Shown piece by piece: positions 6,239 to 30,867 of a stretch of DNA of 44,246 nucleotides. This DNA is from Candidatus Acidiferrum typicum. GTDB lineage: Bacteria > Acidobacteriota > Terriglobia > Acidiferrales > UBA7541. The position numbers and the translations under genes are program-made. The notes beneath the pieces are model-generated. The model did no database searches and was not told where the DNA came from. It was given only the letters and a program-made list of their open reading frames with translations. Positions within the stretch are counted from its first letter, which is position 1. Every line of letters starts with the position of its first letter. The stretch lies in the NCBI GenBank assembly GCA_025463055.1, contig JAOAPV010000032.1:1-44246 (forward strand), given 5' to 3'.

Positions 6239-6245
6239 AACCACA

Positions 6246-7067
6246 ATGATCTCGTCTGACGGCATTTCCCCCACGAGTTTGCACGCAACAAAAACGTTTC
6301 GTTATCTGACATATCACGAAATATCGAATACCGAGCCGGAGTATCGCTACAGCGTTTCGTTAGCAAAGTTTGCAGAGCACGCTCGTTGCCTGCGCAGATT
6401 GGCAGATGTCCGACATTCGGAATCTGGCTCATGCCCGATCACCTTTGATGATGGCCATATCTCTCAATTCGATTTAGCGCTCCCTGTCTTAAAAGAGTTT
6501 TCGATCAAGGCGATCTTTTTTGTTACAGCGGGTTGGGTAGGCAGACGCGAAGGGTACATGTCCTGGAAGCATGTCGACGAGATCGCGCGCGCCGGCTACG
6601 AGGTTCAATCCCACGGTTGGTCTCACGCTTGCCTGTCACGATGCTCAAATCGAGAGCTTGACGTGGAACTTCGGCGATCAAAGTCTGAGCTGGAAAGTCA
6701 TTTGGGCATCAGAGTGTCCGCGATATCGGCCCCTGGGGGCAGATGGAATCAAAGGGTTCTGCTCGCCTGCCATGATGCCGGTTATGAGCGCTTATTCATA
6801 TCAGAACCTTGGGCAACCACCAAAAAACAAGACGGAATTGAAGTATTGGGTCGCTGGATGGTGACGAGAACCACGGATGAGAATGAAATTTCTGCATGGC
6901 TTAAAGGTCGTGGCGCACCTGTAGCGCTCGCCAGGATGCGAAATCTCGCGACGTCGGCTGTGAAGAGGGCGATCGGAGATCGCTCGTACGAGAGAGTATG
7001 GAGAGCTTTGGCGCGAAAGAACCGAAGCATAGAGAGCCAGTATTCCGGTAAGGAAACGAAAACCTAA
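6246..7067 (+). CDS. Polysaccharide deacetylase (NodB domain)
   Basis: A 273-residue carbohydrate esterase 4 protein. Key motifs are ITFDDG (residues 65-70), HGWSH (His123, His127) after a short linker, and APGGRWN. ATG at 6246 is chosen over an upstream ATG at 6195, which would overlap the preceding gene by 44 bases and add a non-homologous-looking Arg/Cys stretch. It is a different branch from the DUF3473 protein before it, so it probably acts on another sugar or at another step. The stop codon TAA at 7065-7067 overlaps the next gene's ATG by one base, which indicates translational coupling. Confidence 0.85.
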   Translation: MISSDGISPTSLHATKTFRYLTYHEISNTEPEYRYSVSLAKFAEHARCLRRLADVRHSESGSCPITFDDGHISQFDLALPVLKEFSIKAIFFVTAGWVGRREGYMSWKHVDEIARAGYEVQSHGWSHACLSRCSNRELDVELRRSKSELESHLGIRVSAISAPGGRWNQRVLLACHDAGYERLFISEPWATTKKQDGIEVLGRWMVTRTTDENEISAWLKGRGAPVALARMRNLATSAVKRAIGDRSYERVWRALARKNRSIESQYSGKETKT

Positions 7068-8227
7068 TGTCGCGGCCCAGTGTCCTACAGTTGATCAGCA
7101 GCGGCGGACTGTACGGCGCCGAGAACATGGCGTTAGAGTTGACGCGCGCATTGCTTCATTTAGGTTGTCCGGCAAGTCTCGGGGTTTTTCTGAATGTCCA
7201 TCGTCCGAATCTTCAGGTTGCCGACGCCGCACGAAGTCAAGGATTAGAAGTTGAACTTTTCGAGTGCCAAGGACGCATTGATAGGCAAACAATCCGACGC
7301 GTTCGGGATTGCCTGTTGCGTGGCAGGATCGATATCCTTCACACGCACGGTTACAAGGCAAATACCTACGGACTCTTGGCGGCGAAAGGAACGTCGGTAA
7401 AGACAATCGCCACTTCACATAATTGGCCGGGAAGAAGTTTGTCGCTGCGCGCCTATGGCCTACTAGATAGGCTGCAGCTCCGATTCTTCGACCGGGTGTG
7501 TGCTGTATCAGAGAGTGTCCGCCACCGTCTGCTGCGATCGCTTGTGCCCGATCGCAAGATTACAGTCGTGAGGAATGGCATAGACTGTGAGCGGTTCCGT
7601 GATGGTCGCTCGGTTTTAAGAAATGATCTATCATCGAAAGATGGCTTGTTAGTTGGCTATGTCGGAAGACTCGCGCCTGAGAAAGATTTGCATTCCCTAT
7701 TGCGCGCGGCGAAGGCAATTCTCAACACATTGCCTTCCATTTCATTTGTACTCTGCGGTGAAGGGCCAGAACGCAGGTCACTCGAGGCCTTGGCGCTCCA
7801 ATTGGGTATCGAAAATAGCGTTTTCTTCTTAGGCCAGCGTTCTGACACTCCGGATCTCTACTCGTCGTTCGATGTGGTTGTCTTGCCCTCTTTAACCGAA
7901 GGAATGCCGCTTGCGGTTCTAGAAGCAATGGCGGCGAAGAAGGCCGTAGTGGCTAGCCGTGTCGGCGCAATACCGAAAATTCTCGAGGATGGAAAGAGTG
8001 GCCTGCTGGTGGAACCTGGTAACACGAAAGAACTCGAATCCGCACTTCTCCGGCTACTAAGGAACCGAGAGATGCGACTTTCCTTCGGCCAAGCTGGATT
8101 TGACATCGTTGAATCGAACTTCTCCTCGAAAGTGATGGCTCAAACATACCTATCAATTTACAGCGAAGTTCTTTCGACAAAATTTGAGGACCGCATACTC
8201 TCTCCTATGGAGTCTGGACGAAATTGA
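7067..8227 (+). CDS. Glycosyltransferase family 4
   Basis: A 386-residue GT-B enzyme. It opens with VLQLISSGGLYGAENMALEL, the GT4 pattern with the Gly-Gly and Glu. The donor half starts near VGYVGRLAPEKDLHSLLRA and holds the E-x7-E signature in TEGMPLAVLEAMAAKKAVV. It probably adds one sugar to the lipid-linked repeat unit. It overlaps its upstream neighbour by one base and the downstream GT2 by four, so all three are made together. Its paralogue at 14491-15681 is arranged in the same way in the minus block. Confidence 0.88.
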   Translation: MSRPSVLQLISSGGLYGAENMALELTRALLHLGCPASLGVFLNVHRPNLQVADAARSQGLEVELFECQGRIDRQTIRRVRDCLLRGRIDILHTHGYKANTYGLLAAKGTSVKTIATSHNWPGRSLSLRAYGLLDRLQLRFFDRVCAVSESVRHRLLRSLVPDRKITVVRNGIDCERFRDGRSVLRNDLSSKDGLLVGYVGRLAPEKDLHSLLRAAKAILNTLPSISFVLCGEGPERRSLEALALQLGIENSVFFLGQRSDTPDLYSSFDVVVLPSLTEGMPLAVLEAMAAKKAVVASRVGAIPKILEDGKSGLLVEPGNTKELESALLRLLRNREMRLSFGQAGFDIVESNFSSKVMAQTYLSIYSEVLSTKFEDRILSPMESGRN

Positions 8228-9261
8228 GCGATATCTCTGTATCACTGTATTCGGCGACGGAGACCGCGCGCGTTAGCCACGAGCCGTGTATCTCTGTAAT
8301 CATTCCGGTGCTGAATGAAGAGACTGTAATCGGCCGCTGCCTTGAGTTTCTCTCACACAGTCTGCTCCCCAAGGACCAATTCGAAGTTATCGTAGTTGAC
8401 AATGGGTCCACGGATCGGACCATCGAAGTTGTGAGGACATTCGAGTCTCGCTTGTGTTTAAAAATCTTGACCCTTGAGAAGGCGCACATTTCTGCTCTGC
8501 GCAATCGCGGAGCGTCGCAAGCTCGTGGGACGATCCTTGCTTTCCTCGATGCAGATTGTCTGGCGCCACCGGAATGGCTGACCACAGCGACCGAGACGAT
8601 TAACAATTCTGGTGCCGGCGTATGCGGAGCCCATTATCGTATTCCGGATGATGCTACCTGGGTCGGACGAATTTGGACCAACGACAGGCTGCACGGAAGG
8701 GAACAGAATGTTTCCTATGTGCCCGGAGGTGATTTGATTATTCGCGCGGACGCCTTCAGGCGCCTCGGGGGCTTTGACGAATCGATCCAGACAAATGAGG
8801 ACTTTGAACTCTGCCAGCGAGTAATGGAGGACGGTTTGCCAGTAAGATCCCACCCAGGGCTGGGAGTAGTTCACCTCGGGACACCACGAACGCTAGCAGG
8901 ATTCTTTCGCAAACATCGGTGGCACGGCACTCACGTCTTAACCGTATTCCTAAGGGACCCTGACAAACGAAAGAATCGGCGAGTGGTAGCGGTTTCTGTA
9001 TATACGCTACTGGGCACTCTGGGACTACTGGGCTGCCTAGTATTTGCCATCTTACAGCGCAGCTGGATCCTCTTCGACGCTTTCGCCTTGCTGCTGGTTC
9101 TGCCCATTTTCCTTATGGTCGCAGCTAGGCTAATACCGCGGGGACGATGGCTGGAGATTCCAGGGCTAACTCTTCTCTATTTGACGTTCTGCGTGGCACG
9201 AGCAAGCTCCCTTATAAGACCCGGGTCCTGGACTGCCGCGAAGGGGCGTTCGGGGACGTAG
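8224..9261 (+). CDS. Membrane-anchored glycosyltransferase family 2
   Basis: A 345-residue GT2. The N-terminal catalytic domain has SVIIPVLNEETVIGRCLEF, VDNGSTDRT, the DxD-like FLDADCLAP, the catalytic NEDFELCQRV and a QxxRW-like KHRWHG near residue 240. Three hydrophobic segments follow (about 258-340), so the C-terminus is in the membrane. The start is TTG at 8224 inside the TGA stop of the previous gene (ATTGA overlap), an unusual start but the one that fits the coupling. It is last in the 5336-9261 operon and converges on the beta-helix gene. Confidence 0.85.
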   Translation: MSDISVSLYSATETARVSHEPCISVIIPVLNEETVIGRCLEFLSHSLLPKDQFEVIVVDNGSTDRTIEVVRTFESRLCLKILTLEKAHISALRNRGASQARGTILAFLDADCLAPPEWLTTATETINNSGAGVCGAHYRIPDDATWVGRIWTNDRLHGREQNVSYVPGGDLIIRADAFRRLGGFDESIQTNEDFELCQRVMEDGLPVRSHPGLGVVHLGTPRTLAGFFRKHRWHGTHVLTVFLRDPDKRKNRRVVAVSVYTLLGTLGLLGCLVFAILQRSWILFDAFALLLVLPIFLMVAARLIPRGRWLEIPGLTLLYLTFCVARASSLIRPGSWTAAKGRSGT

Positions 9262-18381: not shown

Positions 18382-19773
18382 TTAATGCGCCCCTCGCCGC
18401 AGCAATACGACTTTGATTGTCTCGAAAAGGATCGCGCAATCTACGACTAACGAGGGGTTCTTCAGGTAAAAGAGATCGAGTTCGAGCTTATCCTTGGAAT
18501 CATCAATAGTGGAGCCGTAACGAAACCGCACCTGCGCCCAGCCCGTTAGCCCCGGACGAGCCGAGTGCCTCAGATTGAAATACGGTATTTTCTTCTCCAA
18601 CATGGTGCAGAATACGGGGCGTTCCGGTCGGGGGCCCACTAGGCTCATTTCCCCGCGCAACACGTTGAATAGTTGAGGAAGCTCATCCAAGCGCGCTTTT
18701 CGAATGAATTTGCCCACTTTAGTGACGCGGCTGTCCTGTCTGCTGGCCCATTGGGGGCCGTCTTTCTCGGCGTCCTGCACCATCGAGCGAAACTTTATCA
18801 ACTCAAATTCGCGGCCCCTGTACCCTACCCGCGTCTGCCGGAAAAAAATCGGCGTGCCGGACTCCACATAGACTGCGAGTGCGACCAAAGGCAAAATCGG
18901 TATGCTGAGAATCAGCAATACGGAAGATGCCAAGATGTCAATCACACGTTTGCAAGCGCGCAACCACGGCGATTTCTTGAAACCATCGGAAAGTATCAGC
19001 CAACTGGGTGAGAGATGCTCCAGCGCAATCCGGCCCGAGAGGCGTTCGAAACAGTTATGAACGTCTTCCACGCCGACACCGGCAAATTTAAGCTGTAGCA
19101 GTTCACGCAGCGGCGTGCCTCCTCGGCGTTCTCTAAGGGCCAAAATCACACGGTCAACCTTTTCCGCCTGTACGATTTCCTGAAGGTCGGCGGTTGCTCC
19201 GATGATCTTGGGATTGACCAGAGATTTCCCAATGTCTCTCCCTTTTTCATCCAGGAACCCCACAACTTTCATGTTGTATTCAGGATGTCCTAGAATGTGC
19301 TTCACCAGGGAAACGCCGGCATCTCCCGTTCCGACGATGAGAATTCGTTCGTTGCCGCGAGCTAACAGGTTCGTCGCATTTGCAGAAAGCCGCCAACCTA
19401 GCAGAAATGCCAAAATCAAGGGTGATGCCAGAACGGTGATGCCTCGACCCAAGCTCGCAGTCGGGGCTAGAAAATAGATTATGGACAGGACCACGCACGC
19501 AGCGCCGACTGCCTGCGTCATCCGGGCGAACAGGTCGGTACGTCGGCGAACGACTAGGAAGTCATACAGATCGTTGAAATATAGCGAGGTCTCGCAGACC
19601 GCGACCACCAAGACTATCCTCGCCCAGTACGCGCCATCATCTATCTCCGTCCTCAGCGATGTTGACAACCGTAGGGCGGTAGCAAAGATGAGGATGCATG
19701 CACACGCGACCGAATCCACTCCGATAAGCAGGAGTGTTCGCGCGGGAACCTGATGAGAGCCTATCCGTGGCAT
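18382..19773 (-). CDS. Exopolysaccharide polyprenyl glycosylphosphotransferase (exosortase-associated type)
   Basis: A 463-residue priming enzyme that moves a sugar-1-phosphate from a nucleotide sugar to undecaprenyl phosphate. Residues 10-130 give four membrane helices, about 140-225 a Rossmann-like CoA_binding_3 domain (ILIVGTGDAGVSLVKHI), and 268-463 the bacterial sugar transferase domain (KRVIDILAS, KFRSMVQDAE, ARLDELPQLFNVLRGEMSLVGP, RPGLTGWAQV). Overall layout matches the TIGR03013 group seen beside exosortase A. It is first in the minus block and starts downstream of a sigma-54-like site at 19805-19820. It begins the assembly line for the polymer made by the downstream genes. Confidence 0.9.
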   Translation of the reverse strand: MPRIGSHQVPARTLLLIGVDSVACACILIFATALRLSTSLRTEIDDGAYWARIVLVVAVCETSLYFNDLYDFLVVRRRTDLFARMTQAVGAACVVLSIIYFLAPTASLGRGITVLASPLILAFLLGWRLSANATNLLARGNERILIVGTGDAGVSLVKHILGHPEYNMKVVGFLDEKGRDIGKSLVNPKIIGATADLQEIVQAEKVDRVILALRERRGGTPLRELLQLKFAGVGVEDVHNCFERLSGRIALEHLSPSWLILSDGFKKSPWLRACKRVIDILASSVLLILSIPILPLVALAVYVESGTPIFFRQTRVGYRGREFELIKFRSMVQDAEKDGPQWASRQDSRVTKVGKFIRKARLDELPQLFNVLRGEMSLVGPRPERPVFCTMLEKKIPYFNLRHSARPGLTGWAQVRFRYGSTIDDSKDKLELDLFYLKNPSLVVDCAILFETIKVVLLRRGAH

Positions 19774-19804
19774 CGCTCGCTCTAGACCTTAACGTCATGA
19801 GAGC

Positions 19805-19820
19805 GGCAATTCTCCCGCCA
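19805..19820 (-). promoter_or_regulatory. Possible sigma-54 (-24/-12) promoter for the sugar transferase operon
   Basis: On the minus strand the site reads TGGCGGGAGAATTGCC. The GG and GC are exactly 10 bases apart. TGGC and TTGC match the consensus and the flanking AC and W positions do not. Transcription would start near 19794, about 20 bases ahead of the ATG at 19773. Confidence 0.45.
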
Positions 19821-19840
19821 GTTCACCCGATCGTAAGTCT

Positions 19841-19852
19841 ATTGTTTACAAT
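19841..19852. repeat. Short inverted repeat ATTGT-TT-ACAAT
   Basis: Perfect 5-base arms with a 2-base spacer lie about 20 bases upstream of the minus-strand -24 element. The position suits a regulator site, but short AT-rich dyads also occur by chance. Confidence 0.3.
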
Positions 19853-19887
19853 GGGAACTATCTGTTTCACCCGGTAATTCCGGCAAT

Positions 19888-20106
19888 TTAGGAAGGAGAC
19901 TTCCACTTTTGTGTGATCTGCGATCCTTCCATTCCCTCGGATGTGAAAAACAATACCCCGAAAAGGAAATCGTCAGGATAGCTCGTCGGATTCGGCCCAA
20001 TATCCCCTTTGTTTTCAAAGCTTCCAATCCACTTGCTGCTTAGACCAAAAGCCCGAGTGGCACCCTGATTGCTCACCCAAGAGCGAAAATCTGCGAACCG
20101 ACTTTC
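19888..20106 (-). pseudogene. Open stretch with protein-like composition, possible gene remnant
   Basis: One minus-strand frame stays open for about 72 codons between a stop at 20107-20109 and its own stop near 19888. The translation ([46 protein letters not shown]) has a balanced, protein-like composition with aromatic and Gly residues. The only usable start is a GTG at 20076, with no clear ribosome site. The frame overlaps the plus-strand sigma-54 site. It could be a decayed fragment of a secreted protein gene, a small protein, or chance. I do not recognise a family. Confidence 0.22.
20058..20073 (+). promoter_or_regulatory. Sigma-54 (-24/-12) promoter of the plus-strand glycan operon
   Basis: The sequence TGGCACCCTGATTGCT matches the RpoN consensus TGGCAC-N5-TTGCW at every defined position. 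The invariant GG and GC are 10 bases apart. The predicted start of transcription is near 20085, leaving about 50 bases of leader before ATG at 20134 with its GGAGG site. RpoN control with the PrsK/PrsR two-component pair is known for exosortase EPS systems. Neither regulator is in this window. Confidence 0.75.
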
Positions 20107-20133
20107 TTATTCCGCGTTTTGGAGGGTTCAACC

Positions 20134-21204
20134 ATGCGAGTGTTGTTGACCGGCCATCTTGGATACATCGGCACGATCATGGCTCCGCTGTTAGCCGAAG
20201 CCGGTCATGAAGTCGTTGGTTTAGACAGCGGCTTGTTCGAGCCGTGTACCTTTGGCGAGCCTCCCCGCCAATTTCCCTCAATTCGCAAGGACATACGAGA
20301 CGTTACGCCATCCGAGTTGGAGGGTTTCGATGCAGTCCTACATCTCGCTGGGCTATCCAACGATCCGCTTGGCAACCTCAATCCAAATTTGACTTACGAA
20401 ATTAACCATCGAGCTTCCGTTCATCTAGCTCAATGCGCAAAGCAGTCCGGGGTGGAGCGCTTCGTGTTCTCCTCTTCGTGCAGCACCTATGGTGCTGCCG
20501 GTGACAAGATCCTTGATGAATCCGCCGAATTCAACCCTGTCACGCCCTATGGTGCTTCGAAGGTCTTCGTGGAGCGCGATGTCGCCAAGCTGGCGAGCAC
20601 AAACTTCAGTCCAACGTTTCTTCGCAATGCCACAGCATACGGCGTTTCTCCCCGTCTACGTTTTGACCTTGTGCTCAATAATCTGGTCGCTTGGGCCTTC
20701 ACTACCGGCCGTGTATACATCAAGAGCGACGGTACTCCGTGGCGTCCTATCGTGCACATCCAAGACATCTCTCGCGCATTCCTGGCTGTAATGGAAGCGC
20801 CTCGAGATCTGGTACACAACCAGGCCTTCAACGTCGGCCGCAGCGAAGAGAATTACCAAATCCGCGACCTGGCGGAGATTGTGAAGGACACGGTGCCGGG
20901 CTGCCGAATTGAGTACGCCGTCGATGCGGGTCCCGATACACGATGCTACCGAGCGGACTTCAGTCGCATCTCCCGCACGCTTCCGAATTTTCAGCCGCAA
21001 TGGGACGCGCGCAAGGGTGCTCTCGAATTGTACGAGGCCTATCAGAAGGTTGACCTACGTCTCGAGGACTTTGAGGGGGCACGCTACAAACGCATAGATC
21101 ACATTCAGGGTCTTCTGACGTCCGGGCGCCTGGATTCGACTTTGCGTTGGCAGTCAGCCGATGTCGAGAGCGTGCTTCAACCTTCGATTACGGCAGCCAA
21201 TTAA
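20134..21204 (+). CDS. NAD-dependent epimerase/dehydratase (extended SDR)
   Basis: A 356-residue nucleotide-sugar enzyme. ATG at 20134 is chosen over TTG at 20119 because GGAGG lies 8 bases ahead. The Rossmann motif is TGHLGYIG (Gly7, Gly10, Gly13). The active site has SSSCSTYG and YGASK (Tyr139, Lys143). The Asp-Glu pair expected of 4,6-dehydratases after the Ser/Thr is absent, so epimerisation or reduction of a nucleotide-linked keto sugar is more likely. It is first in the ten-gene operon behind the sigma-54 promoter and 14 bases ahead of the RmlC-like gene. The exact substrate is not determinable. Confidence 0.85.
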
Positions 21205-21218
21205 GGCCAGGGTGAAAC

Positions 21219-21770
21219 GTGATTTTTTCGAAGACCAAATTGCCGGGTGTTTTCGTCATTGAGCCGGGTAGGCATGACGATGACCGAGGTTTCTTTGCGC
21301 GCACGTTCTGCCGCGAAGAATTTGTGGCGCGCGGCCTGAACGCTGATGTTGCGCAGTGTAATGTCTCGTTCAACAAACGTAAGGGAACTTTGCGGGGAAT
21401 GCACTACCAGGTGCCGCCTTCAGCCGAGGTCAAACTCGTGCGTTGTACGGCTGGAGCGATCTTTGACGTCATTATAGATTTACGTGAGTCCTCCCCGACT
21501 TTTCGTCAGCATTTGGCAGTCGAGCTTTTTGCGGGAACGGGCAAGATGCTTTATGTCCCGGAAGGATTCGCTCACGGTTTTCAAACTCTCGTCGACGACA
21601 CCGAGGTCTTTTACCAGATGTCTCACCCTTACGCTCCGGAGTGTGCTCGCGGAGTTCGTTGGGACGACCCCGCATTCGGCATCGACTGGCCATCCGCAGA
21701 GCGGATCCTTCTCGATCGCGATCGCAACTATCCCGACTTCGCCACTTGCCACGTCGAGTTAGGTCAATGA
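21219..21770 (+). CDS. rfbC: dTDP-4-dehydrorhamnose 3,5-epimerase family protein
   Basis: A 183-residue cupin of standard RmlC length. It carries DDRGFFARTF, the catalytic His62 in RGMHYQ, Lys72 in EVKLVRC, Tyr132 in VFYQMSH, and the conserved Asp near LLDRDRNY. These residues are those used for epimerisation at C3 and/or C5 of a 4-keto-6-deoxy sugar nucleotide. RmlA, RmlB and RmlD are missing from the window, so the substrate may be a CDP- rather than dTDP-sugar. The start is GTG at 21219, and the stop overlaps the next gene as ATGA. Confidence 0.85.
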   Translation: MIFSKTKLPGVFVIEPGRHDDDRGFFARTFCREEFVARGLNADVAQCNVSFNKRKGTLRGMHYQVPPSAEVKLVRCTAGAIFDVIIDLRESSPTFRQHLAVELFAGTGKMLYVPEGFAHGFQTLVDDTEVFYQMSHPYAPECARGVRWDDPAFGIDWPSAERILLDRDRNYPDFATCHVELGQ

Positions 21771-23128
21771 GCTCGACCGAACTCCACAACGTGTCAGTCT
21801 GCAGCGATATCGGCGGTGAGCTGCACCGTTTGATAGCGGACCTTTATCCGATCTGCCGCAGCATCACCGGTGAGGGCCTGCGGGAGACATTGCGCGTGCT
21901 CGGACAGTACGTCCCCTTGGATCTCCGCGAAGTGCCGACAGGTACCCAGGTGTTTGATTGGACTGTCCCCAAAGAGTGGAACATCCGAGATGCTTATGTG
22001 AAGAACTCTCGTGGCGAGCGCGTAATTGATTTCCGTTCTTCGAATCTCCACGTCGTGAATTACAGCGCCCCGGTACGCCGCAAGATGCGCCTTGCCGAAT
22101 TGAAGATGCATCTGTTCACTTTGCCAGACCGGCCGGATTGGATTCCCTACCGTACCTCCTATTACAACGAAACCTGGGGATTCTGTATCAGCCATCGGCA
22201 GCTCGAAGGTTTGCCGGATGACGAATACGAAGTTGTGATCGACTCGACTCTGCAGCCCGGTAGTTTGAGCTATGGAGAGTATTTTCTGAGCGGCGAGCTG
22301 CCTGACGAAATCATTATCTCAACGCATTGTTGCCATCCCTCCATGTGCAACGACAATCTTTCCGGCATCGCAATCGCCACCTTCCTTGCGAAACACTTGT
22401 CGATGCGTCCGCGCAGGTACTCCTATCGATTCTTGTTTATTCCCGGAACCATTGGCGCCATCACTTGGTTGGCTTTGAACGAAGAGAAGATTTCTCGGAT
22501 TCGGCACGGGTTGGTGCTCACCGGTTTGGGGGACAGCGGAAAGCTACATTATAAGAAGAGCCGGCAAGCCAGCGCAGATATCGACCTTGCCGCCGCTCAC
22601 GTGCTGCACCACGGTGCTTATCAACATCAGCTGCTGGATTTTTCGCCTTACGGTTACGACGAAAGGCAATTCTGCTCACCTGGAATCAATCTGGCAGTAG
22701 GACGGCTATCGCGCAGTCCACACGGCACATTTCCCGAATATCACACTTCGGCGGACGATTTGGCGTTTGTGCATCCGGAGAACCTTGCCGAGTCATTTGA
22801 CGCTTGTCTCCAGATCCTTGCCCTACTCGAAAGAAATGGAACCTTTCTAAATCTGAATCCGAAATGTGAGCCGCAGCTGGGAAAGCGCGGCCTGTACACA
22901 ATGATCGGCGGTGCCCGGGACGCGGGTACCAGGGAATTGGCCATGCTCTGGGTTCTGAATCTCTCGGATGGCAGCCATTCGCTTCTGGATATTGCGGAAC
23001 GCTCCAAGCTGAGCTTCGAACTTGTTCGCGCTGCGGCAGAAAACCTGCAGGAGCAGGGTCTCTTGCGTGAATGCCTCGAATTTGTGCGACCCATGCCTTC
23101 GGAATCAGTCGAAAGGACAGAATCATGA
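21767..23128 (+). CDS. DUF4910 aminopeptidase-like (M28-fold) protein with C-terminal winged helix
   Basis: A 453-residue protein. ATG at 21767 overlaps the previous stop (ATGA). Residues about 15-130 are the DUF2172-like N-terminal part (LYPICRSITGEGLRETL). About 180-360 are the Zn-peptidase-like core, with likely metal ligands in STHCCHPSMCNDNLSG (His187, His190, Asp196), YDERQFCSPG and EYHTSADD. About 380-445 are a winged-helix segment (HSLLDIAERSKLSFELV). Members recur in O-antigen and sugar-modification clusters, where their substrate is unsettled. Hydrolysis of an amide on a sugar or carrier is a guess. It overlaps the next gene as ATGA. Confidence 0.8.
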   Translation: MSSTELHNVSVCSDIGGELHRLIADLYPICRSITGEGLRETLRVLGQYVPLDLREVPTGTQVFDWTVPKEWNIRDAYVKNSRGERVIDFRSSNLHVVNYSAPVRRKMRLAELKMHLFTLPDRPDWIPYRTSYYNETWGFCISHRQLEGLPDDEYEVVIDSTLQPGSLSYGEYFLSGELPDEIIISTHCCHPSMCNDNLSGIAIATFLAKHLSMRPRRYSYRFLFIPGTIGAITWLALNEEKISRIRHGLVLTGLGDSGKLHYKKSRQASADIDLAAAHVLHHGAYQHQLLDFSPYGYDERQFCSPGINLAVGRLSRSPHGTFPEYHTSADDLAFVHPENLAESFDACLQILALLERNGTFLNLNPKCEPQLGKRGLYTMIGGARDAGTRELAMLWVLNLSDGSHSLLDIAERSKLSFELVRAAAENLQEQGLLRECLEFVRPMPSESVERTES

Positions 23129-24045
23129 ATTCCATTTATATAGACCAGGCGAATGACGACCAACAACGGCGCGAATTGTTGTACGGCGGGCAAATCGTCG
23201 TCCAGTCGCCCACTCCGAGCTCTCTCGCTCTAGTCGAATTCGCGCGTCAGATGCTCACCGAGGCTTTTGGCGACGCGGATCCCGAGACGGCACAGTTTCA
23301 TATGCCCGTCGAGCGCTACGCTACGATACTCGCCGAGCTCAAACCCAAGTTCATCCACCACTCGAAGTCGAAAGAGTGTATCCAGGGAATCCTGCGTGAG
23401 ACCGGCTGTGATGTCACCAAAACTTACTTTGATGTGCCGCGCATGCGTACCTCGACCAGCGACAAATACCTCACCACCGGCATTGCCTACGCCTTCCACC
23501 CCCATCGCGATACCTGGTACTCAGCTCCCATGTGTCAAGTGAACTGGTGGATCCCCATTTACCCCATCGTCGCCGAGAACGCCATGGCCTTTCATCCGCG
23601 GTATTGGAGTCAGCCAGTGCGCAATGGCTCCGCAACTTACAACTACGACGAATGGAACCGCACTAGCCGGCACAGTGCCGCTCAGTTTTTGAAAGAGGAC
23701 ACTCGCAAGCAGCCTCGTCCCGAGGAACCAATCGAGCTCGACCCCCAGATCCGCGTAATTACCCCGCCAGGAGGCATGCTGTTATTTTCCGGCGCGCAGA
23801 TGCACTCCAGCGTGCCCAACACTTCCAACCGCACTCGCCTGAGCATCGACTTTCGAACCGTGCACATTGATGACGCAGTTGCGCGCCGCGGCGCTCCCAA
23901 CGTTGATTCTGAGTCCACAGGCACCTGCATGCATGACTATCTGCGCGGAACCGATCTCGCGCATGTGCCGGAGGAACTCTACGCGTTGTACCAGACGCAG
24001 CCACCCCTTGTGCGTCCCAGGGAACTACAGGCTGTCGCCGTTTAA
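23125..24045 (+). CDS. Putative Fe(II)/2-oxoglutarate-dependent oxygenase
   Basis: A 306-residue protein whose ATG at 23125 overlaps the stop of the previous gene. The Fe(II) facial triad can be read as His127-Arg-Asp129 in FHPHRDTW and His227 in GAQMHSSVPN, followed by Arg238 in NRTRLSIDFR to hold 2-oxoglutarate. This is a double-stranded beta-helix layout like phytanoyl-CoA dioxygenases. It probably hydroxylates or oxidises a sugar nucleotide or an attached group. Its lock-step coupling with the DUF4910 gene suggests that the two act in sequence. The family assignment is from motifs only. Confidence 0.7.
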   Translation: MNSIYIDQANDDQQRRELLYGGQIVVQSPTPSSLALVEFARQMLTEAFGDADPETAQFHMPVERYATILAELKPKFIHHSKSKECIQGILRETGCDVTKTYFDVPRMRTSTSDKYLTTGIAYAFHPHRDTWYSAPMCQVNWWIPIYPIVAENAMAFHPRYWSQPVRNGSATYNYDEWNRTSRHSAAQFLKEDTRKQPRPEEPIELDPQIRVITPPGGMLLFSGAQMHSSVPNTSNRTRLSIDFRTVHIDDAVARRGAPNVDSESTGTCMHDYLRGTDLAHVPEELYALYQTQPPLVRPRELQAVAV

Positions 24046-24062
24046 CAAACTTCAAAAACCCT

Positions 24063-24833
24063 ATGACTACAGCAGACCAACTGGTGAATAACGCGGACGC
24101 CGCAACGAAAATGTTGCGGGACGGTGTTGCCCTCGTTACCGGCGCTACGTCGGGAATCGGACGGGCCATCGCACTGGCTTTAGCCGCGCAGGGCGCTCGC
24201 CCCTGCCTAGTTGGTCGCAGCACGCATACTCTTGAAAATGTGCTGCAACTCGCTCGCATCGATTCGCCATACGCTCGAATGTATCGCGCGGATCTCACGA
24301 GCGAAGAAGATATCCGAGCTTTGGTCGCAGACGTTGACCACGATTTCGGTCGAGTCGACGTTTTGGTCCATTGCGCGGGCCTCATCTCCCACGGTGAACA
24401 TGCGAATGCTTCCGTTTCCGAGCTAGATTCCCTCTATAGCGCTAATGTCCGCGGACCATACCTGCTGACGCAATTGGCTCTTCCCCTCCTGCGAGTCGGG
24501 CCCGGCCAAATTGTTTTCGTGAATTCCAGCAGCGGGTTGAAGGCCCGCGCTCGGGCCGGCCAATTTTCTGCCACGCAGCATGCCATGAAGGCGATTGCCG
24601 ATAGCCTCCGTGATGAAGTGAACGGCGACGGCATTCGCGTCCTAAGTGTTTTTCCGGGACGCACAGCCACACCTCGCACCGAGAAGCTTTTCCATGAAGA
24701 GGGGAAACCCTACCGGCCAGAGTTGCTGATGCAGCCGGAAGATGTGGCCACCATGGTGCTTTATGCCATCAACCTGCCGCGTAGCGCTGAAGTCACCGAA
24801 ATCGCTATGCGGCCGCTGTACAAGTCCTATTGA
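24063..24833 (+). CDS. Short-chain dehydrogenase/reductase lacking the YxxxK motif
   Basis: A 256-residue classical SDR. The cofactor motif TGATSGIG (26-33), Asp77 in RADLT, HCAG (103-106) and Asn128 in SANV are intact, as are NSSSG (154-158) and FPGRTATP. The catalytic Tyr and Lys are replaced: the motif reads FSATQ (Phe168, Gln172), where close relatives have YSATK. The codons are TTT and CAG, so each needs one or more base changes. It should still bind NAD(P) but is not expected to do normal SDR chemistry. It may be a structural partner, or catalyse a different reaction. It lies 17 bases after the oxygenase gene. Confidence 0.85.
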   Translation: MTTADQLVNNADAATKMLRDGVALVTGATSGIGRAIALALAAQGARPCLVGRSTHTLENVLQLARIDSPYARMYRADLTSEEDIRALVADVDHDFGRVDVLVHCAGLISHGEHANASVSELDSLYSANVRGPYLLTQLALPLLRVGPGQIVFVNSSSGLKARARAGQFSATQHAMKAIADSLRDEVNGDGIRVLSVFPGRTATPRTEKLFHEEGKPYRPELLMQPEDVATMVLYAINLPRSAEVTEIAMRPLYKSY

Positions 24834-24840
24834 GAGATCG

Positions 24841-26085
24841 ATGACCAAGACGAACAATCCTAAATGTCGGTTTTGCGGGACGAAGCTGGAGTGCACCTTC
24901 GTAGACCTTGGCATGTCGCCCTTGTGCGAAAGCTATCTCAGCTCGAACCATTTGAACCAAATGGAGCCGTTTTACCCGCTGCACGTCTACGTCTGCACTA
25001 ACTGCTTCCTCGTGCAGCTGGAGGCCTACGTCAGCCCGGAGCACATCTTCACGGATTACGCCTATTTTTCCTCGTACTCGGACTCCTGGCTTGCTCATGC
25101 TAAGGCGTACACAGATCAGATGACGGATCGTTTTCCTATTGATGAACGCAGCCTCGTTGTGGAAGTGGCCAGCAACGACGGATACCTGCTTCAATACTTT
25201 GTCCAGAAGGGTGTGCCAGTCCTCGGCATTGAGCCTGCCGCAAATGTTGCCCCTGAAGCTGTTAAAAGGGGCGTGCCGACCCTAGTGAAGTTTTTTGGCA
25301 CGGAGACCGCCCGCGAGCTTACGGCCGCCGGGAAACAAGCCGATCTGCTTCTCGGCAACAACGTCCTTGCTCAAGTTCCCGATCTGAACGACTTCGTCGC
25401 GGGAATGAAGATCCTGCTAAAGCCGCGCGGGGTCATCACCATGGAATTCCCGCACCTTCAGCGGCTCATGGAAGAAAATCAATTTGACACTATCTACCAT
25501 GAACACTTCTCGTATTTTTCCCTGCTCACTGCCGAAAAGATTTTTGCGGCGCATGGCCTGACGCTCTTCGACGTGGAAGAGTTGCCCACGCATGGCGGCT
25601 CGCTACGCATCTTTGCTCGCCATGCAGACGACTCCTTGCATCCGGTTACCTCGCGCATCGGTGAGCTGCGCGCACGCGAGGAGCGGTTGGGGTATGTGCA
25701 AATCGAAACGTACTCCCGTTTTGCCGATCAGGTGAAGGAAACCAAGCGCAAGCTGCTCGAATTCCTCATCCAAGCAAAGCGCAGCGGGAAACAAATCGCG
25801 GGCTATGGTGCGCCCGGGAAGGGCAACACGCTCCTAAACTATTGTTCTATTCGCACAGACTTCATTGACTACACCGTGGATCGCAATCCGCACAAGCACG
25901 GCAAATTCTTACCCGGAACACGCATCCCCATTTATCCGCCGGACCAGATTCGCATCACACAGCCGGACTACCTGCTCATCCTCCCTTGGAATCTCAAGCA
26001 GGAAATCATGCAGCAGAATGCTTTCATTCGGGATTGGGGAGGCAAGTTTGTTGTGCCGATCCCGGAAGTGAAGGTTTACTCGTGA
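24841..26085 (+). CDS. Sugar C-methyltransferase (SAM-dependent, zinc-binding N-terminal domain)
   Basis: A 414-residue three-part enzyme like TylC3, NovU and TcaB9. The N-terminal zinc site has Cys9, Cys12, Cys52 and Cys55. The SAM fold has VVEVASNDGYLLQ (106-118) and NNVLAQVPD. The active-site segment YHEHFSYFS (219-227) holds the Glu-His pair used as base in this family. The C-terminal domain starts near GYGAPGKGNTLLNY and binds the sugar nucleotide. It should add a methyl to C3 of a 4-keto-deoxysugar, giving a branched sugar. The start is ATG at 24841. It is 7 bases after the SDR gene. Confidence 0.88.
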   Translation: MTKTNNPKCRFCGTKLECTFVDLGMSPLCESYLSSNHLNQMEPFYPLHVYVCTNCFLVQLEAYVSPEHIFTDYAYFSSYSDSWLAHAKAYTDQMTDRFPIDERSLVVEVASNDGYLLQYFVQKGVPVLGIEPAANVAPEAVKRGVPTLVKFFGTETARELTAAGKQADLLLGNNVLAQVPDLNDFVAGMKILLKPRGVITMEFPHLQRLMEENQFDTIYHEHFSYFSLLTAEKIFAAHGLTLFDVEELPTHGGSLRIFARHADDSLHPVTSRIGELRAREERLGYVQIETYSRFADQVKETKRKLLEFLIQAKRSGKQIAGYGAPGKGNTLLNYCSIRTDFIDYTVDRNPHKHGKFLPGTRIPIYPPDQIRITQPDYLLILPWNLKQEIMQQNAFIRDWGGKFVVPIPEVKVYS

Positions 26086-26140
26086 CCTCGTCGCTCGAAC
26101 ACGGTTCGTCCTTAAGGCGAATCTCAAGGAGAAGGCTTCC

Positions 26141-26974
26141 ATGAAAGTCGTTATCTTCTGCGGCGGGCTTGGCATGCGCTTGCGCGAATATGCGGACAAT
26201 GTGCCTAAACCCATGGTGCCGATTGGCTACAGACCCGTTCTGTGGCACGTGATGAAGTATTACGCGCATTACGGCCACAAAGACTTTATCTTGTGCCTGG
26301 GGCACCGCGCCGACGTCATCAAGCAATACTTTCTCCATTACGACGAGTGTGTCTCCAATGACTTTTCGCTCTCAAATGGCGGAAAAGATCTCCAGCTGTT
26401 CAACAGCGACATCCACGACTGGAACATTACGTTCGCCGAAACCGGAACCCACTCCAATATCGGCCAACGCCTTAAAGCCGTTGAACGCTACCTCGCCGGT
26501 GAACAGATGTTTCTGGCTAATTACGCCGACGGCCTCACGGACATGCCCCTGCCAAGCCTCGTTGAGTTCTCCAGGCAGCATGGCAAGGTTGCTACTTTTG
26601 TTTCGGCCAAGCCGAATCTCACCTATCACGTGATCGCTGCCGATTCTGACGGTTTCGTGAGCGAGGTTAAATCCATTAGGGATACTCAGCTTCGCATCAA
26701 CAGTGGGTATTTTGTTTTCAAGCGCGAAATATTCGAGTACATGCGTAACGGAGAGGAGCTCGTCCTTGAGCCCTTCCAACGTCTAATGGCGCAAAAACAG
26801 TTGGTTGCTTACGCCCACGATGGTTTTTACGCTTCCATGGACACTTTCAAGGACAAGCAGCAGTTGGACGACATGTACGCCCGGGGCGAGGCGCCTTGGG
26901 AGGTCTGGAAAAATGCGCAGCAACCCGAGGAGGCGGCGGTCTCCGTCGCTAATGCGCTTACCAATGAAACTTAG
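26141..26974 (+). CDS. rfbF: Glucose-1-phosphate cytidylyltransferase-like nucleotidyltransferase
   Basis: A 277-residue nucleotidyltransferase. The signature GGLGMRLREYADNVPKPMVPIG has the pyrophosphorylase loop and the Lys of PKP. VLWHVMKYY and NYADGLTD (metal-binding Asp) follow, then INSGYFVFKREIF. It resembles RfbF, which makes CDP-glucose, more than the RmlA dTDP type. This points to CDP-linked chemistry in the operon. The next enzyme, CDP-glucose 4,6-dehydratase (RfbG), is not in the window. AAGGAGAAGG precedes the ATG. Confidence 0.82.
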   Translation: MKVVIFCGGLGMRLREYADNVPKPMVPIGYRPVLWHVMKYYAHYGHKDFILCLGHRADVIKQYFLHYDECVSNDFSLSNGGKDLQLFNSDIHDWNITFAETGTHSNIGQRLKAVERYLAGEQMFLANYADGLTDMPLPSLVEFSRQHGKVATFVSAKPNLTYHVIAADSDGFVSEVKSIRDTQLRINSGYFVFKREIFEYMRNGEELVLEPFQRLMAQKQLVAYAHDGFYASMDTFKDKQQLDDMYARGEAPWEVWKNAQQPEEAAVSVANALTNET

Positions 26975-26989
26975 GATCCCCTGCGCGTC

Positions 26990-27652
26990 ATGATGAATCT
27001 TCTTCTTCCACACTTAGGCAATCAGCCCCTTCACGTCCTTTGCCTTGGCGCACACTCCGACGACATCGAAATCGGTTGTGGTGGAACCATTCTGCGCCTG
27101 CTCGAGGTGCAACCCATCGTCCGCGTTGACTGGGTCGTCTTTAGCTCCAGCGCGCGTCGTCGCCGCGAAGCGTTGCACAGTGCCCAACTTTTCTTGAAGC
27201 GCGCAAAATCCAAAAAGGTTATCGTTCGCTCCTATCGCGACGGGTTTTTTCCATACCTGGGTGCAAAAATCAAAGACGAATTTGAGCGCCTCAAGCGGCG
27301 CGTCAATCCCAGCTTGGTCTTCACCCACTACCGTCATGACTTGCATCAGGACCATCGTGTGCTCAATGAACTAACCTGGAACACTTTTCGCAACCATCTC
27401 ATCCTGGAATACGAGATCCCTAAATATGACGGAGATTTAGGTTCGCCCAATGTATTCTCTTCGTTAGATGAATCGACGTGCCGGAAAAAAGCCGCTTTTC
27501 TTAAGCAGGCGTTCCGCACACAGGCGTCGAAACAATGGTTTTCGGATGACACTTTTCTGGCCCTGACGCGCCTGCGCGGGGTAGAAGCGAGTTCTCCAAC
27601 AGGATTCGCTGAGGCTTTCTACGCAAGAAAGATCAATTTGCAGTGGCAATAA
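26990..27652 (+). CDS. PIG-L family deacetylase
   Basis: A 220-residue LmbE/PIG-L fold zinc enzyme. Metal and catalytic residues are in LGAHSDDIEIGCGG (His22, Asp24, Asp25) and in HYRHDLHQDHRVL. It should hydrolyse an N-acetyl (or similar amide) group from a sugar or sugar nucleotide. Such genes commonly sit beside RfbF-like and C-methyltransferase genes. It lies 15 bases after the cytidylyltransferase gene, and a second in-frame ATG immediately follows the first. Together with the NodB proteins this gives the locus four deacetylases. Confidence 0.85.
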   Translation: MMNLLLPHLGNQPLHVLCLGAHSDDIEIGCGGTILRLLEVQPIVRVDWVVFSSSARRRREALHSAQLFLKRAKSKKVIVRSYRDGFFPYLGAKIKDEFERLKRRVNPSLVFTHYRHDLHQDHRVLNELTWNTFRNHLILEYEIPKYDGDLGSPNVFSSLDESTCRKKAAFLKQAFRTQASKQWFSDDTFLALTRLRGVEASSPTGFAEAFYARKINLQWQ

Positions 27653-27715
27653 GATCTGCCTTTCCGGAGGCTGGTACGCAGCGGCTGTAGACGAAGGCTT
27701 ACATGAGGTGCACGA

Positions 27716-28501
27716 ATGAATTCTGAATGGCTCGCAGACTTTTGGCACTACCGCGAGCTGCTTTATTTCTTGGCCTGGCGTGATGTCAAGGTGCGCTACA
27801 AGCAGGCTGCGCTCGGCGCTTCGTGGGCCATTATTCAGCCCTTGTTTACAATGATCATCTTCACACTTTTTTTTGGCCGGGTTGCGGGTGTTCCTAGCGA
27901 CGGCCTTCCTTATCCTCTGTTTTCGTTCTGTGCGCTGGTTCCTTGGACCTATTTCTCCACTACTCTGAGCCAAGCAGGAAACAGCCTGATCAGCAATGCC
28001 CCGCTCGTCACGAAAGTATATTTCCCGAGGGCCCTGTTGCCCGCGGCATCGGTGCTCAGTGGCCTGGTGGATTTTCTGGTTGGCGCCTCATTCCTTGCAT
28101 TGATGATGATGTATTACCGCATCAAGCCCGGATGGTCTCTTTTCTTTGCGCCCTTTTTCATTGCCGGTATGGTGCTGCTGTCATTCAGCGTCAGTATGTT
28201 CCTCGCCGCTCTCAACGTCCGCTATCGCGACGTCAAATATGCGTTGCCCTTCATCATTCAGATGTGGCTGTTCATAACGCCCATCATTTATCCGGCTAAC
28301 TTCTTGCCCGCTAGAATGAAGCCTTTTCTCGCTTTCAATCCCATGGCCGGGCTTCTGGAAGGATTCCGTTGGTCTCTGTTCACCACGCGTCGCTTGGACT
28401 GGGGCCTGCTGGGCAGCTCGGTAGCTATTACCGTGCTTTTGCTGATCATCGGCGCGATTTATTTTCGGAAAACGGAGAGAACCTTTGCGGACATTGTCTG
28501 A
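27716..28501 (+). CDS. wzm: ABC-2 polysaccharide exporter permease
   Basis: A 261-residue membrane protein with six hydrophobic segments. The N-terminal LAWRDVKVRYKQAALGASWAIIQP is the well-known start of Wzm/TagG-type permeases (amphipathic helix plus first membrane helix). LVTKVYFPRALLP and LNVRYRDVKYALPFIIQ are further family marks. It forms the channel for an undecaprenyl-linked glycan in ABC-dependent O-antigen or EPS export. GAGGTG precedes the ATG. It pairs with the ATPase gene just downstream. Confidence 0.9.
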   Translation: MNSEWLADFWHYRELLYFLAWRDVKVRYKQAALGASWAIIQPLFTMIIFTLFFGRVAGVPSDGLPYPLFSFCALVPWTYFSTTLSQAGNSLISNAPLVTKVYFPRALLPAASVLSGLVDFLVGASFLALMMMYYRIKPGWSLFFAPFFIAGMVLLSFSVSMFLAALNVRYRDVKYALPFIIQMWLFITPIIYPANFLPARMKPFLAFNPMAGLLEGFRWSLFTTRRLDWGLLGSSVAITVLLLIIGAIYFRKTERTFADIV

Positions 28502-28540
28502 GTGCAGAAGGGAGGATCGCCGCCTCGTTCCGGGTCCACT

Positions 28541-29824
28541 ATGAGCCAAGCTATCGCTGTTGAAAAACTATCCAAGAGGTTCGTGCTAGGTACGCTTCAG
28601 CGCGACACCATGTTACGCGAACGCCTGATCAGTCTGCTTCGTGCGCCTTTCCGCGGGCGCTCGACTTCCTCCAATATCTTGTGGGCGCTGCGCGATGTTT
28701 CCTTCCGCGTTGATGCTGGTGAGGTCGTCGGCATCATCGGTCGTAATGGCGCCGGCAAGAGCACGCTCCTGAAGGTCCTGTCGAAAATAACCTATCCCAC
28801 TTCCGGCACCGTTCGAGTGGGGGGCCGCGTCGCGTCTCTGCTCGAAGTAGGCACAGGTTTCCACGAAGAGCTCACCGGCCGCGAAAACATCTATTTGAAC
28901 GGTTCAATCCTGGGCATGAAACATGGCGAAGTCGCGGCGAAACTGGACTCAATAGTCGACTTTGCCGGCGTCGCGCGATTTCTGGATACGCCGATTAAGC
29001 GTTACTCCACGGGTATGCGCTTGCGGCTAGGTTTTGCCGTTGCTGCGCATCTCGATCCCGATGTCCTCATCGTGGACGAAGTGCTCGCTGTCGGCGACGC
29101 AGGCTTTCAGCGCAAATGTCTCAATACCATGGAAGGACTGCGCACTGGTGGTCGCACTGTGCTTTTTGTTTCTCACAACATGGCCGCCGTTGAGAACCTC
29201 TGCTCTCGATGCATCTGGATTGATGCTGGACAAGTATGTATGGACGGCTCGCCTCGCGAGGTCATTGAAGCCTACATGAATACCTTCGCGAACGCTCGCG
29301 AGGCAATGGCCGACTTGCGCTCCGTGGAGAATCGCCGCGGCTCGGGCGAAATCCGCTACACCGGCGTCGAATATCTGACCCCCACCGGTGAGCCTCTTCA
29401 AGTCGTCCGCAGCGGCGACCCCCTCAACATCCGTTTTCACTATCATGCCAACAAGCCGGTCGCCTTCCCTAGCTTCGGTTTCCGCCTCTACACCGACTTC
29501 GGTACACTCATTACCGACACGAGCACGTGGCATCACGCGATCGATATCCCGCTCATTCCTCCCGGCGATGGCTACGTCGACTTGCACATTGATTTTCTCA
29601 ACCTCCTTCCCGCCCGATATTATTTCTCCTTATGGATCACAGGCCCGGCCTCTCCTGTCTACGACAACGTCGAGCATTGCGCCGAGCTCGACGTCGAATT
29701 GGCTAATGTCTATTCCTCCGGAAGAATGCTTGACAGCCGATCAGGCATCGTCTTTTTTCCGCAGCATTGGACGGTCCATGAGCCCTCCCTGGTAGGAGCG
29801 GGCAGTAAGGCAGGAGAGAAATGA
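28541..29824 (+). CDS. wzt: ABC-2 polysaccharide exporter ATPase with C-terminal Wzt carbohydrate-binding domain
   Basis: A 427-residue protein. The nucleotide-binding domain has Walker A GRNGAGKST (67-75), signature YSTGM (155-159), Walker B with Glu180 in VLIVDEVLAVGD, and the switch His212. Residues about 270-420 form a Wzt_C beta-sandwich, which in ABC O-antigen systems recognises the finished polymer end. ATG at 28541 fits family N-termini. GTG at 28502 would add 13 residues, and a strong GGGAGGA lies 25 bases upstream of the ATG, so the start is uncertain. Its stop overlaps the following GT2 as ATGA. Confidence 0.9.
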   Translation: MSQAIAVEKLSKRFVLGTLQRDTMLRERLISLLRAPFRGRSTSSNILWALRDVSFRVDAGEVVGIIGRNGAGKSTLLKVLSKITYPTSGTVRVGGRVASLLEVGTGFHEELTGRENIYLNGSILGMKHGEVAAKLDSIVDFAGVARFLDTPIKRYSTGMRLRLGFAVAAHLDPDVLIVDEVLAVGDAGFQRKCLNTMEGLRTGGRTVLFVSHNMAAVENLCSRCIWIDAGQVCMDGSPREVIEAYMNTFANAREAMADLRSVENRRGSGEIRYTGVEYLTPTGEPLQVVRSGDPLNIRFHYHANKPVAFPSFGFRLYTDFGTLITDTSTWHHAIDIPLIPPGDGYVDLHIDFLNLLPARYYFSLWITGPASPVYDNVEHCAELDVELANVYSSGRMLDSRSGIVFFPQHWTVHEPSLVGAGSKAGEK

Positions 29825-30867
29825 ACGACGCTCCCTTGGTCAGTGTGGTCACGCCTGTCTACAACGGCGAGGAACACCTTGCCGACTGCATCGAGAGCGT
29901 CCTGTCTCAGACGTATTCAAACTGGGACTACACCATCGTGAACAATTGCAGCAGCGATAGGACCTTAGAAATTGCCCAATCGTACGCTGCGAAGGATTCT
30001 CGAATCCGCGTTCACTCCAATTCCGCCTTTGCTGCCATTATTGAGAATCACAATGTCGCGCTTCGGCAAATTTCTCCGGAAAGCAAGTACTGCAAGGTTC
30101 TCTTTGCAGATGATTGGCTCTTTCCAACGTGTATCGAGAAAATGCTGGAACTGGCTGAAGCTTATCCGTCGCTCGGGCTCGTGAACGCATATTCGCAGGC
30201 GGGCGAAAAGATTAGATGGCAGGGATTACCGTATCCCCTGTGCTGTGTCCCAGGACGACAGATCTGTCGCCAAAGACTCTTGGGCGGGCCCTATTTCTTG
30301 GGCACCGCAAGCAGCCTCTTGTTCCGCAGCGATATCGTGCGCCAGCGCCCTTCCTTTTTTAGCGACTGGCATATTCACGCAGACTATACGGCATTTCTCG
30401 ATGTTCTCGGTTCTTCCGATTTCGGGTTTGTGCACGAAATTCTCACCTTTTGCGGGGCGCGCGCGGAAAGCAACACGAGTTTTGCAACTGACTACAATAC
30501 GCTGCTGCTTGCAGAGATTGCAGGCCTCCAAAAGTATGGGCCCGTATATTTGACTTCAGCCGAGCTGGACAAGCGCATGCGCGTAGAAATGCGCAGTTAC
30601 TACCGATTTTTGGCGAAAAGTGTGTTGCGTTTTCGAAACAAGCAGTTCTGGCGGCACCATCGCAAATGGCACGAAGCTCTCGGCCTCCGTCTGGACCCTG
30701 TCCGGCTTATTGGGAATGTTTGCTTGCAGATTGCGGAATCGCTGCTCCGGCCGACGGATGCTTGGGACAATATTCAGACTTGGTGGCTTCGGCGCAGGCG
30801 CACAAGTACGCAATTGCCTGCAGCGGGATATGAACAAGTCGCGCAAGGAAAAGCTCTCGTGAAATGA
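29821..30867 (+). CDS. Glycosyltransferase family 2
   Basis: A 348-residue GT2 with VSVVTPVYNGEEHLADCIES, NNCSSDRTLEIA and the metal-binding LFADDWLFP. The Gly-Gly-Pro region ILGGPYFLGTASSLLF is typical of acceptor-side loops. A longer, basic C-terminal third (RFRNKQFWRHHRKWHE) suggests membrane association. It is coupled to wzt by ATGA. It probably extends or caps the glycan exported by Wzm/Wzt. No other transferase for that glycan is in this operon, so at least some linkages must be made by enzymes encoded elsewhere. Confidence 0.87.
   Translation: MNDAPLVSVVTPVYNGEEHLADCIESVLSQTYSNWDYTIVNNCSSDRTLEIAQSYAAKDSRIRVHSNSAFAAIIENHNVALRQISPESKYCKVLFADDWLFPTCIEKMLELAEAYPSLGLVNAYSQAGEKIRWQGLPYPLCCVPGRQICRQRLLGGPYFLGTASSLLFRSDIVRQRPSFFSDWHIHADYTAFLDVLGSSDFGFVHEILTFCGARAESNTSFATDYNTLLLAEIAGLQKYGPVYLTSAELDKRMRVEMRSYYRFLAKSVLRFRNKQFWRHHRKWHEALGLRLDPVRLIGNVCLQIAESLLRPTDAWDNIQTWWLRRRRTSTQLPAAGYEQVAQGKALVK

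Follow-up and report, generated by a model that had tools for sequence, protein, structure and literature searches.

The 360-bp intergenic gap between the divergent genes epsB_2 (minus strand) and an NAD-dependent epimerase (plus strand) contains a predicted sigma-54 promoter, TGGCACCCTGATTGCT, at 20058–20073 on the plus strand. It is probably an ordinary enhancer-dependent promoter that serves the ABC-export operon alone. As a sigma-54 promoter for that operon it is well supported by the sequence comparisons, in which its GG/GC pair, its position and a block of DNA upstream of it are conserved. The original prediction placed two such promoters back to back in the gap. As far as sequence can tell, what sets the plus site apart from the minus site is conservation, not consensus score.

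Gene content of the locus

The window, which is the whole stretch of DNA analysed, is the entire contig C18 (44,246 bases) of the genome G000 (5.33 Mb, 98.9% complete). The gene epsB_2 (18382–19773, minus strand) encodes a polyprenyl glycosylphosphotransferase (TIGR03013, 459.5 bits, cut-off 393.35) and is the first gene of a minus-strand EPS operon. Its two best named matches come from Acidobacteria gp2 metagenome assemblies, including QHZD01000033.1. Downstream of epsB_2, glycosyltransferase, Wzy_C, formyltransferase and deacetylase genes continue on the minus strand to 9323. Beyond this point lie plus-strand genes (5336–9261), followed on the minus strand by two glycosyltransferase genes and the gene for the exosortase XrtA. 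Because the plus-strand genes intervene, XrtA is a member of the locus that stands outside the epsB_2 operon. The XrtA exosortase (1077–2750) carries an EpsI-type C-terminal domain.

The epimerase gene (20134–21204, plus strand; PF01370), whose start is common to relatives, heads the ABC-export glycan operon, and the remainder of that operon occupies 21219–30867 on the plus strand. According to Pfam, the remaining genes are rfbC-like, DUF4910, PhyH-like (with a score below the cut-off), SDR, C-methyltransferase, nucleotidyltransferase, PIG-L, Wzm, Wzt and GT2. Further along, at 32620–38988, the window encodes a 2122-aa protein in which fn3, TIG and CHB_HEX_C-type domains were recognised; after it come a prolyl-oligopeptidase-like gene and an apiosidase-like one. 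The genome contains both rpoN (TIGR02395, 403.5 bits, cut-off 277.35) and enhancer-binding proteins (EBPs), whose core is covered by 21 matches in a profile search.

The plus site and the background of consensus matches

Both strings of the original prediction are present in the gap, and the plus site matches the RpoN consensus at 11/11 defined bases, as had been claimed. GG and GC stand ten bases apart within a near-consensus −24/−12 element, the end of which lies 60 nt before the epimerase start. No other zero-mismatch match occurs in the 44,246-base window, and the whole 5.33 Mb genome has five in all; judged by eye, only one of the other four, at L002, clearly precedes an ORF in the sense direction. 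When the intergenic region was shuffled by dinucleotides (n = 2000), 11/11 never arose, and a score of at least 10 arose in 0.3%. A search of 19600–20300 for Rfam families gave no match up to E 0.5.

Background was counted as GG/GC-keeping sites in sixteen hand-picked 20-kb stretches of G000, three of which contain a perfect match. The total of 320 kb held 350 sites at 8 or more, 62 at 9, nine at 10 and three at 11, and the 260 kb without the three perfect-match stretches held 282 (8 or more), 49, 4 and 0, respectively. Sites of at least 8/11 thus occur at about 1.1 per kb, or 0.39 per 360 bp. Over the whole genome, with at most one mismatch, there were 184 matches to the consensus versus 181 to the reversed pattern. 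Upstream regions had 16 sense and 15 antisense sites at 8 or more, and one and two, respectively, at 11. With no excess of consensus matches as a class, neither the plus nor the minus site can be established by its score alone.

A block upstream of the promoter is conserved

A DNA search of 61 genomes found a match in seven, our own genome counted, and the homology extends to the promoter in G028 (TGGCCCCCCGTTTGCT) and G013 (TGGCCCCCTGTTTGCT). These are the two close relatives whose upstream DNA is homologous. Both retain the GG/GC pair, and both have C instead of A in the −24 element. The distance from TGGC to the ATG is 76, 77 and 78 nt in the window, G028 and G013, respectively. Upstream, at 19938–19989 on the plus strand, lies a conserved block in which 38 of 52 columns are identical in the three genomes, and which we propose as the enhancer, the region where an EBP would bind. 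Identity to the window in the three-genome alignment is 70–80% in the block and 80–85% in the promoter, as against about 20–40% (in 20-column steps) in the divergent spacer at 19990–20053, which is 10 and 12 nt shorter here than in the relatives. The gap from block to promoter measures 68, 78 and 80 nt, with length steps near one helical turn, and the distance from block start to TGGC is 115, 125 and 127 nt. Judged from the alignment, block, spacer and promoter together have the layout of an enhancer with a −24/−12 promoter. DNA identity drops immediately upstream of the block; downstream, the promoter island is not sharply bounded, because identity still reaches 50–65% in the leader that joins it to the gene. 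As G028 and G013 are themselves closely related, the footprint represents about two independent comparisons. Among the 36 genomes of the genus, the block core (at most 3 mismatches) was found in three, with one copy each, before the ABC operon.

The distance of the block from the promoter would suit looping, but no dyad in the block stood out above shuffles (199 of 200 scored as well), and the block was not recognised as any known motif. Compared with the DNA upstream of the other candidate sites and with the surroundings of the minus site, it gave no alignment below p 0.05, and a search of the window for a second copy returned only weak matches of block halves. The block was also considered as a short reading frame and set aside, as there is an early stop in the window and, by eye, the changes are not confined to third positions. 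The short dyad that had been noticed between the two sites is probably GGAAGGAGACTTCC at 19891–19904; it is absent from the G028 and G013 stretches taken. The scan that called it found two terminator-like sites, with 2.2 expected. An 8-nt inverted repeat, TATTGTTT/AAACAATA, was dropped, about one such pair being expected per 360 bp by our own estimate.

Epimerase upstream regions across the class

A survey of the class returned 30 epimerase loci for 36 matching genomes among 399; one of them, L151, has just 198 nt of upstream DNA. Within 300 nt upstream, sites of at least 9/11 numbered five in the sense direction and none in the antisense direction, and all five score 10 or 11. They comprise the trio of the window, G028 and G013, together with G085 (11/11 at −74) and G133 (10/11 at −212). 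G085 belongs to another family, and its site stands at nearly equal distance before a similar operon, with homologues of the epimerase, C-methyltransferase, nucleotidyltransferase, PIG-L, Wzm and Wzt. The block was not recognisable upstream of the G085 and G133 sites, and a gene-order search around G085, covering 7 genomes, found no further relative. The G133 site, TGGCATGTTGATTGCA (C39, L150, at about −212), is preceded by a TTTACA at a distance of a few dozen nt. Among the 25 site-less loci, a DUF4910 homologue precedes the epimerase in 13, so the epimerase is probably operon-internal there; it does not do so in the other 12. One of these 12, G024, has most of the operon, with neither a GG/GC site nor the block, and Wzm and Wzt are absent from the stretch taken. 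As the site is absent from 25 of the 30 loci, the promoter appears to mark some epimerase-first operons, not all.

The operon and its neighbours in relatives

In G028 and G013 the order of the ABC operon is the same up to Wzt, save for the SDR, which is missing from the list (matches over 120 bits; the G028 stretch stops inside Wzt). Proteins from the epimerase to Wzt are 78–91% identical to those of G028 and G013, versus 37–75% for the adjacent EPS proteins, and GT2, the final operon gene, is just 50% identical in G013. In both relatives epsB_2 shares its strand with the epimerase, at a distance of about 24–27 kb, and the ABC operon adjoins the EPS locus at its opposite end, as against the epsB_2 end in the window. 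Of the EPS genes recognised, the closest is a same-direction GT2 gene about 2.4 kb off in G028, and a divergent DUF3473 deacetylase gene about 0.7 kb off in G013. Judged by this contrast in identity and by the changed neighbours, the operon behaves, together with its block and promoter, as a single unit at differing junctions.

The minus site and epsB_2 relatives

The minus site, TGGCGGGAGAATTGCC at 19805–19820 on the minus strand, lies 31 nt before the epsB_2 start and 117 nt from the block. It keeps the GG/GC pair and TTGC, as described in the original prediction, but matches at just 8/11, which is background level, and is probably a chance sigma-54-like string; 10% of shuffles of the intergenic region have a site of at least 8/11 on the minus strand alone. 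Relatives of epsB_2 were found at E 1e-60 in 11 of 36 genomes, our own included. Eight were readable once three loci had been left out: our own, L093, whose gene is truncated by the contig start, and L097, where the start was an estimate and no site was found. A sense site of at least 9/11 within 450 nt occurs in none of these eight, and L094 has two of 8/11. The G013 gap has, on the strand of the divergent deacetylase, no site beyond another 8/11 string. The minus site is thus neither above background nor conserved, and the claim of a sigma-54 promoter for the epsB_2 operon finds no support. Most likely this operon is read from a separate promoter.

Some other sequences near epsB_2 were observed in relatives. 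In G033 (L049, about 7385–7953) epsB_2 is preceded by a small gene whose product, judged by eye, is hydrophobic over a stretch at its C terminus; TGGCGTGCCTTTTGCT (9/11) lies about 85 nt before this small gene. The string TGGCAGGCCACATGCT (9/11, with GG/GC) occurs at 97927 of C5 in G028 (minus strand) and at 973 of C128 in G013 (plus strand), 54–55 nt before the gene after epsB_2, which by eye resembles a polysaccharide export protein. It was set aside as a conserved promoter, as G028 and G013 are nearly identical there.

Candidate activators

The original prediction pointed to RpoN/PrsR control as known from exosortase EPS loci; for this genome, the protein searches do not bear out control by PrsR. 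The best PrsR match scored 439 bits (cut-off 502.6) and the best PrsK match 103 (cut-off 300). On the best PrsR-type match the AtoC model slightly outscores PrsR and is likewise below its own cut-off. PrsK was found at E 1e-35 in none of the 36 genus genomes, in a search whose control was silent. A search for XrtA at E 1e-20 was negative in all seven other genomes tested, including G028 and G013 (the latter 77% complete), and G028, G013 and G033 retain epsB_2 though XrtA was not found there. Since XrtA was found in G000 alone among eight genomes, block and promoter appear to occur without XrtA. The TTTACA end of motif 1 of the PEP-CTERM/EpsH element is absent from the block, in a comparison that covered this end of the motif. 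In the gap TTTACA occurs once, with its first base at 19845 and 207 nt upstream of the plus site, and TGTAAA does not occur. Among the five PEP-CTERM matches listed, none is in the window, and the three over the cut-off are on C132, C144 and C93 of G000.

Discussion

Our data suggest that the plus site is the sigma-54 promoter of the ABC-export operon. RpoN-RNA polymerase would sit on 20058–20073 in a closed complex until an EBP occupying the block at 19938–19989 looped across the 68-nt spacer and spent ATP to open the promoter. Transcription would begin near 20084, a start that we take from the usual spacing to the −12 element, and would give a leader of 50 nt with GGAGG before the ATG at 20134. 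An RpoN-dependent transcript of this kind would read the epimerase-to-Wzt operon, and its product may be an ABC-type glycan, made and exported.

The original prediction went further, in that one EBP was proposed to coordinate both polymers. With the block as a shared enhancer, such an EBP would drive the ABC operon and also epsB_2 via 19820–19805. Joint control is conceivable because the block sits between the two operons. The ABC operon neighbours the epsB_2 locus in all three block-bearing genomes, and in G013 the block is again flanked by the epimerase and a divergent gene of the EPS locus, the DUF3473 deacetylase. The minus string with its GG-N10-GC and TTGC is also suitably close to epsB_2. 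However, its background-level score, the eight relatives without a stronger site, the equally weak string in the G013 gap and the lack of a divergent epsB_2/epimerase pair in G028 and G013 leave coordination unsupported by conservation or site strength, and we regard this arrangement as unlikely. At the other extreme, the plus match could have arisen by chance, with the upstream identity being residual homology of another type of promoter. The five perfect matches genome-wide are about what we estimate for random sequence of even composition, upstream regions show no sense/antisense bias, and the G024 copy of the operon has no site. Against this stand the conservation pattern with its retained GG/GC, the 11/11 site of G085 at −74 and the five sense versus no antisense sites of the epimerase survey. 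No sigma-70-like site was found in 19000–21000 either, a weak result, as the chance expectation is just 1.1. We consider a chance match improbable.

The activator could belong to the PrsK/PrsR-RpoN circuit of proteobacterial PEP-CTERM/exosortase genes, an idea that overlaps with the preferred reading because it concerns the identity of the activator. In the PEP-CTERM/EpsH element (Haft 2006, PMC1569441), motif 1 is followed by a spacer with a mean of 62.8 nt (32–92), a −24/−12 element and, a mean of 71 nt on, the start. The corresponding distances here are 68 and 60 nt, and the XrtA gene is present in the window. Both systems thus combine an enhancer-like motif, a spacer of about 60–70 nt, a −24/−12 element and a start about 60–70 nt on, in an EPS setting. 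The present case differs in the sequence of its block, which is without TTTACA, in serving a multi-gene ABC glycan operon in place of a PEP-CTERM gene, in having no PrsK or PrsR over the cut-off and in being from Acidobacteria; the motif as described in that source was reported from Proteobacteria only. Moreover, G028 and G013 keep block and promoter although XrtA was not found in them. This circuit is very unlikely to be the one at work.

Other systems place the predicted plus promoter in context. For the PEP-CTERM gene pepA of Aquincola tertiaricarbonis, primer extension located the transcript start, and dependence on rpoN1 was demonstrated (PMC9850573). As here, a −24/−12 promoter is tied to EPS function, with epsB2 (TIGR03013) in the genome; the gene is a different one, and the plus promoter is a prediction from sequence. 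A survey of sigma-54 promoters (Francke 2011, PMC3162934) associated genes for EPS and LPS biosynthesis and transport with predicted sigma-54 promoters, and the polymer genes of the ABC operon follow the same theme. It is a general survey, in whose main text the word acidobacteria occurs 0 times. In Desulfovibrio vulgaris one EBP, DVUA0057, was assigned several operons for exopolysaccharide and biofilm synthesis (PMC4641369). As its regulon spans several EPS operons, joint control would have a precedent; there, regulator and targets were assigned, whereas here there is a candidate promoter alone. A literature search on sigma-54, Acidobacteria and exopolysaccharide together gave no paper that appeared to deal with such a promoter.

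Control of surface polymers by sigma-54 is already established, and our study adds a conserved, probably enhancer-driven promoter of an ABC-glycan operon in Acidobacteria. Promoter and operon appear to stay together while the neighbouring locus changes. A more speculative and rather doubtful extension is that an enhancer–promoter cassette travels with the ABC operon, and that a head-to-head landing lets the enhancer drive the neighbour via a new weak −24/−12 element, which would rewire the polymer locus. If the minus site does work, the locus would allow the capture of an enhancer between two export routes to be put to the test.
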